From positions 356,001 through 420,000 of the forward strand of contig NZ_CP129236.1 of NCBI RefSeq assembly GCF_030413615.1: 64,000 bases of DNA. The letters are read 5' to 3'. Shown piece by piece: positions 36,933 through 48,613 of the stretch. The position numbers and the translations under genes are program-made. The number at the start of each line of letters is the position of its first letter. Position 1 is the stretch's first letter. The notes beneath the pieces were generated by a model. The model had not been told where the DNA came from. It saw nothing but the letters and a program-made list of their open reading frames with translations, and made no database searches. The stretch comes from Planococcus shixiaomingii. GTDB lineage: Bacteria > Bacillota > Bacilli > Bacillales_A > Planococcaceae.

Positions 36933-36966
36933 AAAAAAATGAGTTCCTCCGAAGAGGAACTCATTA
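36933..36966 (-). terminator. Terminator of the cold-shock gene
   Basis: On the minus strand ATGAGTTCCTC-TTCG-GAGGAACTCAT is followed by seven Ts; 11-bp stem with a UUCG tetraloop. Confidence 0.9.
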
Positions 36967-36982
36967 AATAGTTAGTTTTAGA

Positions 36983-37183
36983 TTAAGCTTTAGTTACGTT
37001 AGTAGCTTGAAGACCGCGTTGGCCTTGCTCGATGTCAAAAGTAACTTCTTGACCTTCGTCTAGTGATTTGAAGCCTTCGCTTTGGATTGCAGAGAAATGT
37101 ACGAATACATCGTCGCCGCCTTCGCGTTCGATGAAGCCAAATCCTTTTTCTGAGTTAAACCATTTTACTTTACCGTGTTCCAT
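36983..37183 (-). CDS. Cold-shock protein (CspA/CspB family)
   Basis: A 66-residue single-stranded nucleic-acid-binding protein. '[31 protein letters not shown]' contains RNP1 (KGFGFI) and RNP2 (VFVHF). Length and sequence match the Bacillus CspB/C/D group of RNA chaperones. The ATG at 37183 follows GAGGAGGAAA; the frame is open further upstream but that region is the untranslated leader. A strong TTCG-loop terminator follows. Confidence 0.95.
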
Positions 37184-37328
37184 GTGTGTTTCCTCCTCGT
37201 ATGCGTGAGCATACATTGTATTACTATCCTTGCTCAAATCTTGCAGATATACATCTGACACTTTTAAAAAAGTTATCCGAACAAAAATAATTCTTCCTTA
37301 GAATAACATGGGTTTACAGAAATTGCAA
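37184..37328 (-). promoter_or_regulatory. Promoter and long 5' leader of the cold-shock gene
   Basis: On the minus strand TTGCAA (37328-37323) and TATTCT (37305-37300) are spaced by 17 bp. The transcript would have a leader of about 110 bases, typical for cold-shock genes, with a hairpin GTATGC-GTGA-GCATAC (about 37199-37214) directly before the ribosome binding site. Confidence 0.6.
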
Positions 37329-46462: not shown

Positions 46463-46516
46463 TAAAAACTGGGTTAATAACTGAAGCTTTAACTTGAAAT
46501 AAGGAGGAACCAGTCT

Positions 46517-46885
46517 ATGAAATGGATTGTTCGAATTATTCAAGGATTGCTAATGGTTATCTATTTTATGACAGGCTTTTTGAAGTTGAGCGGTGATCCG
46601 ACACAAGAGCAAGCCTTTGCAGAAATCTACGGTTATGGCGCCGGGTTTATGTATGTTGTGGGGGTTCTGGAAATACTTGCAGCGCTTGGCCTGTTGATCG
46701 GTTTTTGGAACAGGAAATGGGCCATTGCCGCAAGTGCTTTAATCATTGTTATCATGGCGGGCGCCGTATTCACGCATTTGCAGGCAGGACAAGGTTTTAG
46801 TGTAGCTTCGTTTCCATTTATTCTTTTGCTGTTCGCTGCGGCCGTGTTTTTTGGGCAAAAACGTTTTAACACCCAGCCTGAATGA
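46517..46885 (+). CDS. DoxX-family membrane protein
   Basis: A 122-residue protein with four transmembrane helices. 'IIQGLLMVIYFMTGFLKLSGDP' and 'YVVGVLEILAALGLLIGFW' are the DoxX/DUF4870-type conserved helices with their Lys/Leu and Glu. The family is loosely linked to quinone and thiol stress; no direct function can be read here. AAGGAGGA precedes the ATG. Confidence 0.8.
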   Translation: MKWIVRIIQGLLMVIYFMTGFLKLSGDPTQEQAFAEIYGYGAGFMYVVGVLEILAALGLLIGFWNRKWAIAASALIIVIMAGAVFTHLQAGQGFSVASFPFILLLFAAAVFFGQKRFNTQPE

Positions 46886-46954
46886 ATGAGTCTGTATTTT
46901 CTGTTAATTACGCGCTATAATGGTTGTAACTTTTAAGGAGCGGAGGTTTTTCTA

Positions 46955-46996
46955 ATGGCATCTGTCAGATTGCGTTCCCTTGCTTTGAATCGTTAA
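46955..46996 (+). CDS. Macrolide-sensing-type leader peptide upstream of MFS exporter
   Basis: A 13-codon frame, MASVRLRSLALNR, with GGAGG eight bases before its ATG. It resembles the ErmD leader peptide (MTHSMRLRFPTLNQ) in order: Ser, one residue, Arg-Leu-Arg, then Leu-Asn near the end. The R-L-R is a '+x+' motif at which macrolide-bound ribosomes are known to stall. A TATAAT (46916-46921) is a possible -10. Followed by RNA segments able to form alternative pairings and a terminator before the MFS gene. Confidence 0.75.
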   Translation: MASVRLRSLALNR

Positions 46997-47178
46997 TTAA
47001 ATACGATTAAGGCTTTGCTTAAAAGCGAAGTAAATGGAATGAGTCTGCTTATTTATAGAGAAACCCCGATTACACAGAATTAGAAAGTAAGAGCAATGCA
47101 GCATCCAGCAAAAGAAACTTTTTTCGCATTTCTCGCATCCATTTACTTTAAGCATAGGCCGGTTGCCTATGCTTTTTT
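46997..47178 (+). promoter_or_regulatory. Attenuator: antiterminator and terminator pairing before MFS gene
   Basis: Terminator: AAGCATAGGC (47150-47159) with GCCTATGCTT (47165-47174), then Ts. Competing pairing: AAGTAAATGG (47028-47037) with CCATTTACTT (47139-47148), extended by TGCTTA (47016-47021) with TAAGCA (47149-47154), which uses the left terminator arm. The end of the leader ORF (AATCG 46988-46992) can pair with CGATT (47004-47008). Only one of terminator and antiterminator can form, as expected for drug-dependent readthrough. Confidence 0.7.
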
Positions 47179-47220
47179 GCTTTTTAAACCAAGCCCGAAT
47201 AAAGCAAAGGGTGGACTAAG

Positions 47221-48477
47221 ATGAAACTACTTAAAGCTCTTGATGAAAAATGGAAAAAGAACATCGCGCTCTTTTTAGCTGGGCAAACATTCACGCTTTT
47301 TGGTTCTTCATTAGTGCAATACGCGATTCTCTGGTACATTACTTTGACAACAGAGTCGGGACTCATGATGACGCTTTCGGTCATTTGCGGATTTTTGCCT
47401 ACTTTTGTTTTATCTCCATTTGCGGGTGTGTGGGCAGACCGCTACAACCGGAAAATGCTCATCATTTTATCAGACGCGCTTGTTGCGATTCCTACTTTGA
47501 TCCTTGCTCTGCTTTTTCTGGCAGGTTATGACGCCATTTGGCTGCTATTTGTTGTATCGGCGATACGTGCTGTCGGCACGGGAATCCAAACGCCGGCTGT
47601 TGGGGCAATTCTTCCACAAATTGTACCGGCAGAGCAACTGATGAGAGTCAACGGCATCAATAGCGGCATCCAGGCATTTATCATGCTTGTGTCGCCCGCT
47701 GCGAGTGGGGCTTTACTGACGATGGCTTCGATCGAAACAATCTTCTTTATTGATGTCATTACGGCAGCCATTTCTATTTTCACATTATTTTTCTTTTTGG
47801 ATGTCCCAACTCATGCAAAAGCATTGGGGCAGCAAACGGCGAGTTATTTCAGCGATATGAAAGCGGGCTATGTTTATATCCAAAACCATGCCTTCGTAAA
47901 AGCGCTGTTCATCTTCTACGCCATCTTTTTTGTATTGATTTCACCAGCTGCATTTTTGACTCCGCTGCTGGTCGTCAGAAGTTTCGGGAATGAAGTGTGG
48001 CGGCTGACAGCAAATGAAATCGCCTTCGCTTTAGGCATGATGGCCGGAGGCGCGCTGATTGCTTATTGGAGCGGCTTTAAAAATAAAATCCATACGATGG
48101 CTTTAGCAACGCTGATCATCGGGATCAGTACTTTGGCGCTCGGGGCTATACCTAATTTCATCTTGTATTTGATTTTTATGGGAGTGATTGGTGTAGCAGT
48201 GCCAGTCTTTAATGCGCCTTCCACAGTGCTGCTGCAGGAAAAAGTTGAAGAGGATTTCCTGGGACGCGTATTCGGCGTTCTAGTCATGATTTCGACTTCC
48301 ATGATGCCCCTCGGGATGCTTATTTTCGGACCATTGGCAGATATTATTAAAATTGAATGGCTGCTGGTTGGTACCGGCTTTTTCATGCTGGTCCAAGGCT
48401 TGCTCCTTGTGCAAAATAAAATATTAGTAGAAGCAGGGAAACCTGAAGAGAAAGAGCCGATTGATGAATTAGAATAG
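47221..48477 (+). CDS. MFS transporter (MFS_3 / MefA-like exporter)
   Basis: A 418-residue protein with about twelve transmembrane helices. 'GVWADRYNRKMLIILSD' is the family's loop 2-3 motif (D-R-x-x-R-K), and the order of blocks ('FLPTFVLSPFAG', 'RAVGTGIQTPAVGAILPQIVPAEQLMRVNGINSGIQ', 'GVIGVAVPVFNAPSTVLLQEKVEEDFLGRVFGV') is that of the MFS_3 group containing macrolide exporter Mef(A). With the ErmD-like leader peptide and attenuator in front, inducible macrolide export is the best guess. AAAGGGTGG precedes the ATG. Confidence 0.85.
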   Translation: MKLLKALDEKWKKNIALFLAGQTFTLFGSSLVQYAILWYITLTTESGLMMTLSVICGFLPTFVLSPFAGVWADRYNRKMLIILSDALVAIPTLILALLFLAGYDAIWLLFVVSAIRAVGTGIQTPAVGAILPQIVPAEQLMRVNGINSGIQAFIMLVSPAASGALLTMASIETIFFIDVITAAISIFTLFFFLDVPTHAKALGQQTASYFSDMKAGYVYIQNHAFVKALFIFYAIFFVLISPAAFLTPLLVVRSFGNEVWRLTANEIAFALGMMAGGALIAYWSGFKNKIHTMALATLIIGISTLALGAIPNFILYLIFMGVIGVAVPVFNAPSTVLLQEKVEEDFLGRVFGVLVMISTSMMPLGMLIFGPLADIIKIEWLLVGTGFFMLVQGLLLVQNKILVEAGKPEEKEPIDELE

Positions 48478-48484
48478 CGTGGCA

Positions 48485-48518
48485 GAAAAGGGGTCCTTAT
48501 GGGGCTCTTTTTTTTGCA
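48485..48518 (+). terminator. Probable intrinsic terminator
   Basis: GAAAAGGGGTCC pairs imperfectly with GGGGCTCTTTT; eight Ts follow. Confidence 0.6.
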
Positions 48519-48613
48519 GGGACATCTTAAGATTTTCTTCATAAAACCTCTTGCTAATTGTTAAGATTTGGCGGCTATACTAAAGCCATGAAAGAGGAGA
48601 GAGGGGCAGTAAG

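Follow-up and report, generated by a model that had tools for sequence, protein, structure and literature searches.

In the literature examined here, inducible macrolide resistance has so far been described mostly gene by gene (papers are cited below for the passages that treat the systems concerned). In Bacillus licheniformis, the leader peptide of erm(D)/erm(K) is MTHSMRLRFPTLNQ. ErmDL, with Arg6-Leu7-Arg8, arrests ribosomes in the presence of telithromycin and of erythromycin, the motif being needed with telithromycin and dispensable with erythromycin (PMC8298421), and for erm(K) transcription attenuation and two adjacent terminators have been reported (PMC4335068). The same paper describes transcription attenuation of mef(E), with the leader MTASMRLR, and holds a table of similar leaders. 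MefAL and ErmDL are both named in PMC10314930, and erm leaders are treated in PMC11264731, from which the term 'mph' is absent. In Listeria monocytogenes, hflXr (rli80) lies under a 14-aa ORF with RLR and is governed by alternative terminator and antiterminator structures, with induction by erythromycin and lincomycin (PMC6310831). The tlrB (yxjB) gene of B. subtilis has the leader MIIQFIRYR, a terminator, and a hairpin that also shuts down leader translation; the passages concerned add that a +x+ motif is not sufficient, since only part of such motifs stall ribosomes (PMC6851288). The vmlR attenuator of B. subtilis likewise consists of a leader peptide and a terminator (PMC9226507).

The locus described here lies in a stretch of 64,000 nucleotides from Planococcus shixiaomingii, referred to as the window. 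We read it, with a probability of roughly 0.8, as a transcription attenuator that is operated by the ribosome and controls a chromosomal Mef-like exporter. Its features are listed in Table 1. Judged on the leader peptide, it resembles erm(D)/erm(K), with which it shares R-L-R and a tail of L-N-Q/R, but the gene it serves encodes an exporter and not a methyltransferase, and it has one terminator only, although some of its relatives also carry a second, earlier one. With the mef(E)/mel attenuator of pneumococcal Mega and Tn1207 it has in common a leader peptide, a terminator, a Mef-type MFS protein and, putatively, transcription attenuation (PMC4335068); there msr(D) follows mef, whereas the window exporter is without msr(D). 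The rli80, tlrB and vmlR systems are likened to it by description, rli80 fronting a different gene and the tlrB leader differing from that of the window, MASVRLRSLALNR.

Table 1. Features of the leader and exporter locus, in window coordinates.
Feature	Position	Strand	Remarks and basis
Stretch absent from relative G032 between the same flanks (DoxX-like ORF, leader, exporter)	46470..48590, approximate	+	flank spacing
TATAAT, possible -10 box of leader promoter	46916..46921	+	read directly, weak
Helix P1, 5' strand, covering the leader Shine-Dalgarno site	46941..46954	+	pairs with 47056-47068; covariation
Shine-Dalgarno site GGAGG of leader ORF	46942..46946	+	read from sequence
Leader ORF MASVRLRSLALNR, 13 codons	46955..46996	+	sequence and comparison
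Hairpin A, 5' strand in last leader codons (46983-46993), 3' strand past the stop (47003-47012)	46983..47012	+	covariation
Hairpin B, CTTTGC / GCGAAG, competing with the antiterminator	47013..47030	+	covariation
Antiterminator, 5' strand	47016..47038 (47016-47021 and 47028-47038)	+	duplex z-score, covariation, folding
Helix P1, 3' strand TAGAGAAACCCCG	47056..47068	+	covariation, folding
Antiterminator, 3' strand TCCATTTACTT-TAAGCA, overlapping the terminator foot	47138..47154	+	conserved; covariation
Intrinsic terminator, 10-bp stem, 5-nt loop, T run	47150..47181	+	terminator scans; relatives
DHA3-type MFS exporter, 418 aa, Mef-like	47221..48477	+	NCBIfam hits

An earlier, sequence-only reading of this DNA had proposed the leader ORF, the terminator and a 16-bp pairing that competes with it, and all are found at their places by direct reading of the sequence. 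The ORF starts with the ATG at 46955, spaced 8 nt from GGAGG, and ends with the stop codon at 46994-46996; its R-L-R (+x+) motif occupies codons 5-7. It has the form of a short leader, a predicted ORF with a drug-stall motif behind a Shine-Dalgarno site. The Shine-Dalgarno columns and the first Arg codon, AGA, are invariant or nearly so in an alignment of 62 related elements, and 46955-46996 is supported as a leader ORF on these comparative grounds. The likeness to the ErmD leader remarked on previously is real, and in form the window leader is nearer to MASVRLRFQTLNR (Niallia sp., L082) and MASIRLRFQTLSR (L019). The TATAAT box is a weak candidate, because a promoter scan of 46700-47260 returned 0 sites by its rule where 1.0 was expected.

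The exporter was previously described as MefA-like. This holds in so far as it is a Mef-like MFS protein of the DHA3 type, but membership of Mef(A) or Mef(B) is rejected, its best NCBIfam matches lying far below the curated cut-offs (2A0121, 230.5 bits against 319.6; MefB, 212.7 against 800; MefA, 194.1 against 675), and it is only 29% identical over 381 residues to Mef(A) of phage phi1207.3. The companion claim, that no erm or msr gene is present, proved correct for the whole genome by curated cut-offs. The best Erm score is 158.6 bits against a cut-off of 212, at the presumed KsgA (PF00398), and the best Msr score is 301.8 bits against 680. The latter belongs to an ABC-F protein (G000:C1:446842-448272), which could be an ABC-F protection factor of another type. 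The gene following the exporter encodes another ABC ATPase, whose nearest models are LolD and MacB, with all scores under their cut-offs. The locus is thus neither a mef/msr operon, which would require msr(D) to follow the exporter and the leader RNA to be the same, nor an erm(D) system, the downstream gene encoding an MFS protein and not an Erm methyltransferase.

At E <= 1e-60 the window's own genome is the only one among 46 of the genus with the exporter; across the family, 70 of 250 genomes have it at E <= 1e-110. Rare as it is in the genus, the protein is not unique: the entries listed by a protein search include one on another contig that is 100% identical and a pair with 83% identity, of which one comes from Planococcus sp. 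YIM B11945. In five relatives the surroundings of the neighbouring GNAT gene were compared. The exporter is missing from that place in all five, and three have both flanking genes (GNAT and ABC). In G032 (L171) these two genes are about 154 nt apart, as against about 2150 nt in the window, their proteins being 95% and 87% identical; in L168 and L169 they are separated by about 2100 and 1330 nt of different content, and in L170 and L172 the ABC gene is missing from the stretch compared. The DoxX-like ORF, directly upstream of the leader at 46517-46885, is within the stretch that G032 lacks. A gain of the DoxX-like ORF, leader and exporter together is favoured, because the exporter is absent from the other 45 genomes of the genus, although one tight pair of flanking genes is no proof. 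It is worth adding that the sole Rfam match in the window at the gathering threshold is a cspA thermoregulator RNA (RF01766) at 36935-37308 on the minus strand, with 95.6 bits.

The exporter family was assembled from 80 named and 69 unnamed loci and the window, giving 150 loci, or 132 after removal of 18 with identical proteins. Leaders were sought as ORFs of 6-22 codons with a Shine-Dalgarno-like site and the motif R-[LFIMVWY]-R, within 900 nt upstream (less at contig or stretch ends). Loss of the R-L-R codons from orthologous leaders would have told against the sequence-only reading. In fact an R-x-R leader is kept in 68 of the 132 loci, far above the controls, which gave 3 on the reverse strand, 0 in the first 900 nt of genes, and a mean of 4.15 with a maximum of 8 in shuffles. 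Typical leader peptides are MTASMRLRFPALNN, MTFIRLRFQSLNR and MASVRLRFQTLNR, and many begin with MTASMRLR, as does the mef(E) leader. A terminator scoring at least 18 lies between leader and gene in 60 of the 68. Two kinds of terminator can be told apart: T1 lies about 130 nt past the start of the leader, and T2 (AAACACAGGC..GCCTGTGTTT) is closer to the gene. The two occur together in some loci; the window carries T2 only. Where T1 occurs in relatives (for example L070 and L050) it has the form AAAAGAGGG..CCCTCTTTT and constitutes an earlier second terminator; among candidate alternative pairings for the T1 of relatives nothing stood out (z about -1.2 to 1.6).

Elements of the exporter family, that of the window among them, were used to build R1, a covariance model of the leader element. 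Its E-values are rough, and its matches within the family are there by construction. By R1, 68 of the 132 family loci have the element, and 62 of these built the model. The set differs slightly from that of the ORF rule, adding L015, L080 and L084 and omitting L044, L061 and L139. In L015 (1491-1639) the element scores 148.8 bits and yet has an ORF M-T-F-I-R-L-E that runs on, a natural exception to R-L-R, while in L080 and L084 the ORF rule finds no start codon (ATG, GTG or TTG) for the leader frame where one is usually located. The other 64 family loci lack the element, and on the tree of exporter proteins (131 rows) the leader trait has to change 16 times, from which it follows that the exporter can live without it. 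A copy of the exporter with 66.7% identity, the leader MTASMRLRFSPFIR and an R1 match is present on the Niallia taxi plasmid pMEGANia (L167).

In the window's own genome, R1 places the window in the family with 114 bits and an E-value of 2.2e-21, the window sequence having helped to build the model; one other place is matched, with an E-value of 0.8. Six element loci gave no Rfam match at E <= 0.1. R1 found no match in the mef(A) leader region of phage phi1207.3 (L166), and a kinship of that leader RNA with the window element was accordingly not seen. More widely, R1 matches at E <= 0.001 occur in 81 of 261 genomes at the level of the order, and in 100 of 398 genomes (48 of 145 genera) at the level of the class.

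A subset of the order- and class-level matches, 124 loci, was used to identify the genes downstream, and 120 remained when 4 duplicates had been removed. Grouped by BLAST, these genes are ABC-F (27), HflX (25), Mph (20), Erm (17), DHA2 (11), a second Mef-like clade (8), RlmA-like (6), SDR oxidoreductase (2) and single cases (4). One representative of each group was scanned with curated models. The Msr-type ABC-F (770 bits, cut-off 680), HflX (457, cut-off 216.75), Erm (222.6, cut-off 212), SDR (PRK08263, 435, cut-off 290) and DHA2 (EmrB family, 343, cut-off 230.2) representatives all exceed their cut-offs. The DHA2 representative reaches 516 of the 800 bits set for LmrB, Mph 563 of 612 for MphL, the second Mef-like clade 304 of 800 for MefB, and the RlmA-like representative 163 of 303 for RlmA and 114 of 550 for Erm(32). 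Since the element fronts Msr-type ABC-F, HflX, Mph, Erm, LmrB-like, Mef-like and RlmA-like genes, a role in macrolide or MLS resistance is supported. The 25 elements before HflX-like genes are those that bear on rli80.

Among single loci, L319 is a Tet(A)-like MFS gene (188 of 475 bits), and L228 has a leader frame identical to the printed ErmDL before a Mef-like gene, with a start two codons earlier also possible. Four other genomes of the genus (G003, G014, G042, G043) have the element before an Mph-like gene; at L204-L207, from four genomes of the genus, it stands with the leader MTHSMKLRFPTLNQ before an MphL-like phosphotransferase. L219 and L225 have the element before a short-chain dehydrogenase, with the leaders MIDILTLNR and MIDILSLNR, which lack +x+, and with a hairpin of the T2 kind.

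The +x+ frame is present in 92 of 116 leaders outside the exporter's own clade, by a rule that favours such frames where several exist and some of whose misses are limits of the rule. It is found before HflX in 24 of 25, Erm in 16 of 17, RlmA-like genes in 6 of 6, the second Mef-like clade in 7 of 8 and ABC-F in 22 of 27, and less often before Mph (14 of 20), DHA2 (3 of 11) and SDR (0 of 2). The sensor peptide thus seems to change with the gene, as the low count for DHA2 indicates. Four LmrB-like DHA2 pumps (L217, L218, L221, L223) stand behind the leaders MTLRFPTLNQ or MTLRFQTLNQ, which are without +x+; perhaps such a sensor is tuned to lincosamides.

This raises the question of the drug that the window leader would sense. 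It may respond mainly to ribosome inhibitors other than the classical macrolides, such as lincosamides, 16-membered macrolides or another exit-tunnel drug, the pump exporting something else. The frequent lack of +x+ before LmrB-like genes would fit this, as would the low identity of the exporter to Mef(A), the response of hflXr to both lincomycin and erythromycin (PMC6310831), and the toeprint reported for the RYR leader of tlrB with tylosin and not with erythromycin (PMC6851288). However, the window itself retains R-L-R, and so do most elements outside its clade have +x+, bearing in mind the preference built into the rule. Moreover, macrolides or the site where they bind are the targets of the Mph, Erm and RlmA-type partners. 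We regard a chiefly non-macrolide signal as possible but rather unlikely, and retain a macrolide-responsive attenuator as the preferred reading.

Such an attenuator needs a terminator and a structure that competes with it. The terminator stem is formed by AAGCATAGGC (47150-47159) and GCCTATGCTT (47165-47174), with the loop CGGTT, followed by TTTTTTG. It qualifies as a Rho-independent terminator between leader and gene and is kept in relatives, which have terminators of the AAACACAGGC / GCCTGTGTTT type at the corresponding place; a scan of 46700-47260 found two terminator-like sites including this one, where 0.8 were expected. The antiterminator has a core of 11 bp, AAGTAAATGGA (47028-47038) with TCCATTTACTT (47138-47148), and a second part of 6 bp, TGCTTA (47016-47021) with TAAGCA (47149-47154), the 16 bp noted earlier being 10 and 6 of these. 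Its duplex z-score is -4.3 against shuffles. The fold of 46938-47188 has a z-score of -3.7, equalled by none of 200 shuffles. In relatives the 3' strand is conserved ahead of the T2-type terminator, and an alternative pairing for T2 has a z-score below -2 in 14 of 17 stretches.

The antiterminator was tested on the 84 of 178 elements whose terminator carries a CA-type motif in its 5' arm, chosen blind to upstream pairing. The mean energy with the own partner is -19.95 kcal/mol, as against -16.72 (sd 0.32) with swapped partners and -17.99 (sd 0.31) with partners swapped within gene families, and 0 of 2000 permutations reached it in either case; some 5' stretches are visibly mis-cut, which weakens the test, and permutations control incompletely for relatedness. 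The signal is a shift of the mean, because the own partner is the best one in only 4 of the 84 and in the top tenth in 26. Full compensation is seen in single cases, for example GAGGACTCAGGA with TCTGAGTCCTC before HflX genes (L301 and L302, where no T run was seen in the stretch examined). A freer search for partners gave z <= -2 in 76 of 167 elements, with a T run behind in 50 of the 167 (11 of the 178 were skipped).

Comparison with related elements adds further helices. For P1, which could be cut from 140 of the 178 elements, the own pairs average -16.0 kcal/mol. Exchanging partners between loci raises the mean to -10.6 (sd 0.28), and exchanging them within a gene family raises it to -12.8 (sd 0.22); 0 of 300 permutations were as good in each case. 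The hairpins were examined in alignment A1, which holds 62 distinct elements out of 68, L061, L044, L139, L142 and two identical rows having been removed by hand. In A1 alone, 81.0% of the P1 cells pair, and 2 of 9 pairs are changed on both sides. Hairpin A has changes on both sides in 6 of 10 pairs, and hairpin B in 3 of 6. RNAalifold on the raw A1 gave only 7 pairs and no covariation; hairpin B slips by one column between groups in A1, and the hairpins were for this reason named by hand and then counted. Counted in this way, 84.6% of the cells of hairpins A and B pair, as against 78.9% in shuffles, and 78 cells are changed on both sides, as against 34; none of 500 shuffles was as high in either respect, and slid versions of the hairpins pair in only 34.5-48.0% of cells. 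Two further measures, pairs changed on both sides (9 vs 8.2) and pair types (26 vs 24.9), do not rise above the shuffles. Similarly, the structure extended by P1 and by a helix over the R-L-R codons surpasses all 500 shuffles in cells paired (85.0 vs 81.8%), in cells changed on both sides (95 vs 46.7) and in score, and does not do so in pairs changed on both sides (11 vs 11.9) or in pair types (41 vs 41.5). Variation in the helix over the R-L-R codons is very slight, and this helix has no independent support.

The covariation check suggested for the pairings therefore comes out in favour of the antiterminator, P1 and hairpins A and B, and the predicted leader RNA is richer than the sequence-only reading had it, with a long-range helix over the Shine-Dalgarno site and two hairpins inside it. 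The ORF with its +x+ motif, P1, the two hairpins, the antiterminator and the terminator are all supported as predicted parts of the element. The earlier interpretation as a macrolide-inducible switch likewise gains support as a prediction, because R-x-R is kept across the family, the pairings covary, and the element is found before MLS genes such as Msr-type ABC-F, Erm and Mph.

Folding runs were used to examine how these parts might interact. In the free leader RNA, P1 forms with probability 1.0, the antiterminator with 0 and the terminator with 1.0. Masking the footprint of a stalled ribosome alone (46957-46986) leaves the antiterminator at 0 and P1 at 0.99-1.0. When the Shine-Dalgarno region is masked as well (46940-46986), the antiterminator rises to 1.0 and hairpin B falls to 0, at transcript ends 47159 and 47164. 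With the same mask and a transcript to 47188, the terminator forms with probability 1.0, and the 11-bp antiterminator core forms next to it (0.94-0.95). In folding, the antiterminator thus wins only when the Shine-Dalgarno region is also masked and before the terminator is complete. The claim that terminator and competing pairing exclude each other has to be qualified accordingly: the pairing is present and covaries, but exclusion is partial at equilibrium, because only the 6-bp part overlaps the terminator stem. In these models, a simple scheme in which the stall frees the antiterminator does not follow from equilibrium folding unless the Shine-Dalgarno region is masked. The masked runs suggest that the switch would depend on timing and on an occupied initiation region, and that read-through would need a kinetic step, since the terminator still forms at equilibrium in the longest transcript.

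We infer the following order of events for drug stalling, read-through and macrolide efflux. Without drug, the ribosome would translate the 13-codon leader and depart; P1 would close over the leader Shine-Dalgarno site, hairpins A and B would form within it, and the downstream terminator would end transcription. A macrolide or ketolide bound in the exit tunnel would make the ribosome stall at Arg-Leu|Arg. The stalled ribosome, together with an engaged initiation region (for example, a following ribosome), would prevent P1 from closing, so that 47016-47038 could pair with 47138-47154 ahead of completion of the terminator, and polymerase would read through into the exporter.

As P1 hides the Shine-Dalgarno site, the helices could instead act mainly on leader translation or on RNA stability, a stalled ribosome protecting the transcript, with the terminator only part of the control. 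P1 does show the largest difference between own and swapped partners, but the terminator with its T run and the antiterminator strand that precedes it are conserved too, and we consider this improbable next to a transcription attenuator. Coincidence, with a short ORF and some structures that merely happen to lie in an ordinary terminator-bearing 5' region, is rejected as highly implausible: short ORFs and hairpins are common, and the promoter and terminator scans returned numbers not far from expectation, but the family leader counts, the covariation of hairpins A and B, the antiterminator and P1, and the genome-wide R1 score (the window being in the model) all speak against it.

The presence of one element before so many genes leads to the question of its history. 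The best match of an element lies before a gene of another family in 32 of the 178 elements, the best such pair (Mph L205 and Mef-like L214) being 97.2% identical over 141 nt. A tree of the elements has 34 changes of gene label, where the minimum is 8 and the shuffled mean 105.8, and its well supported branches alone force at least 4 changes for ABC-F, at least 3 each for Mph and Erm, and at least 2 each for DHA2 and RlmA-like genes. The near identity of elements before different genes indicates that the switch has moved between genes; how often is uncertain, because this is a quick tree of short sequences in which 76 of 175 inner branches are weak. We hypothesise, with slightly better than even confidence, that a single homologous attenuator, consisting of the sensor peptide, the P1 domain with hairpins A and B, the antiterminator and the terminator, has been repeatedly transplanted among unrelated MLS-resistance genes (Mef-like and LmrB-like pumps, Msr-type ABC-F, Erm, RlmA-like, Mph and HflX) in the window's class (Bacilli, judged by its relatives) and, together with the exporter, in hosts of the Clostridia type. 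On this view it would act as a drug-sensing module, a cassette whose peptide has been retuned to match the drug class of whichever gene it serves. Among titles and the openings of abstracts in the open-licence literature, no paper on an attenuator family shared by these gene classes was found, which speaks weakly for novelty.

If one RNA family does front many classes of MLS-resistance gene, then a single sequence model would find resistance genes through their drug sensor, including those that are unannotated, and uncharacterised exporters such as that of the window would acquire a substrate that can be tested. Leaders with and without +x+ form a natural series that would reveal how sensor peptides are matched to drugs, and the conserved helix over the leader's own Shine-Dalgarno site provides a concrete hypothesis for how a stalled ribosome may set the switch.
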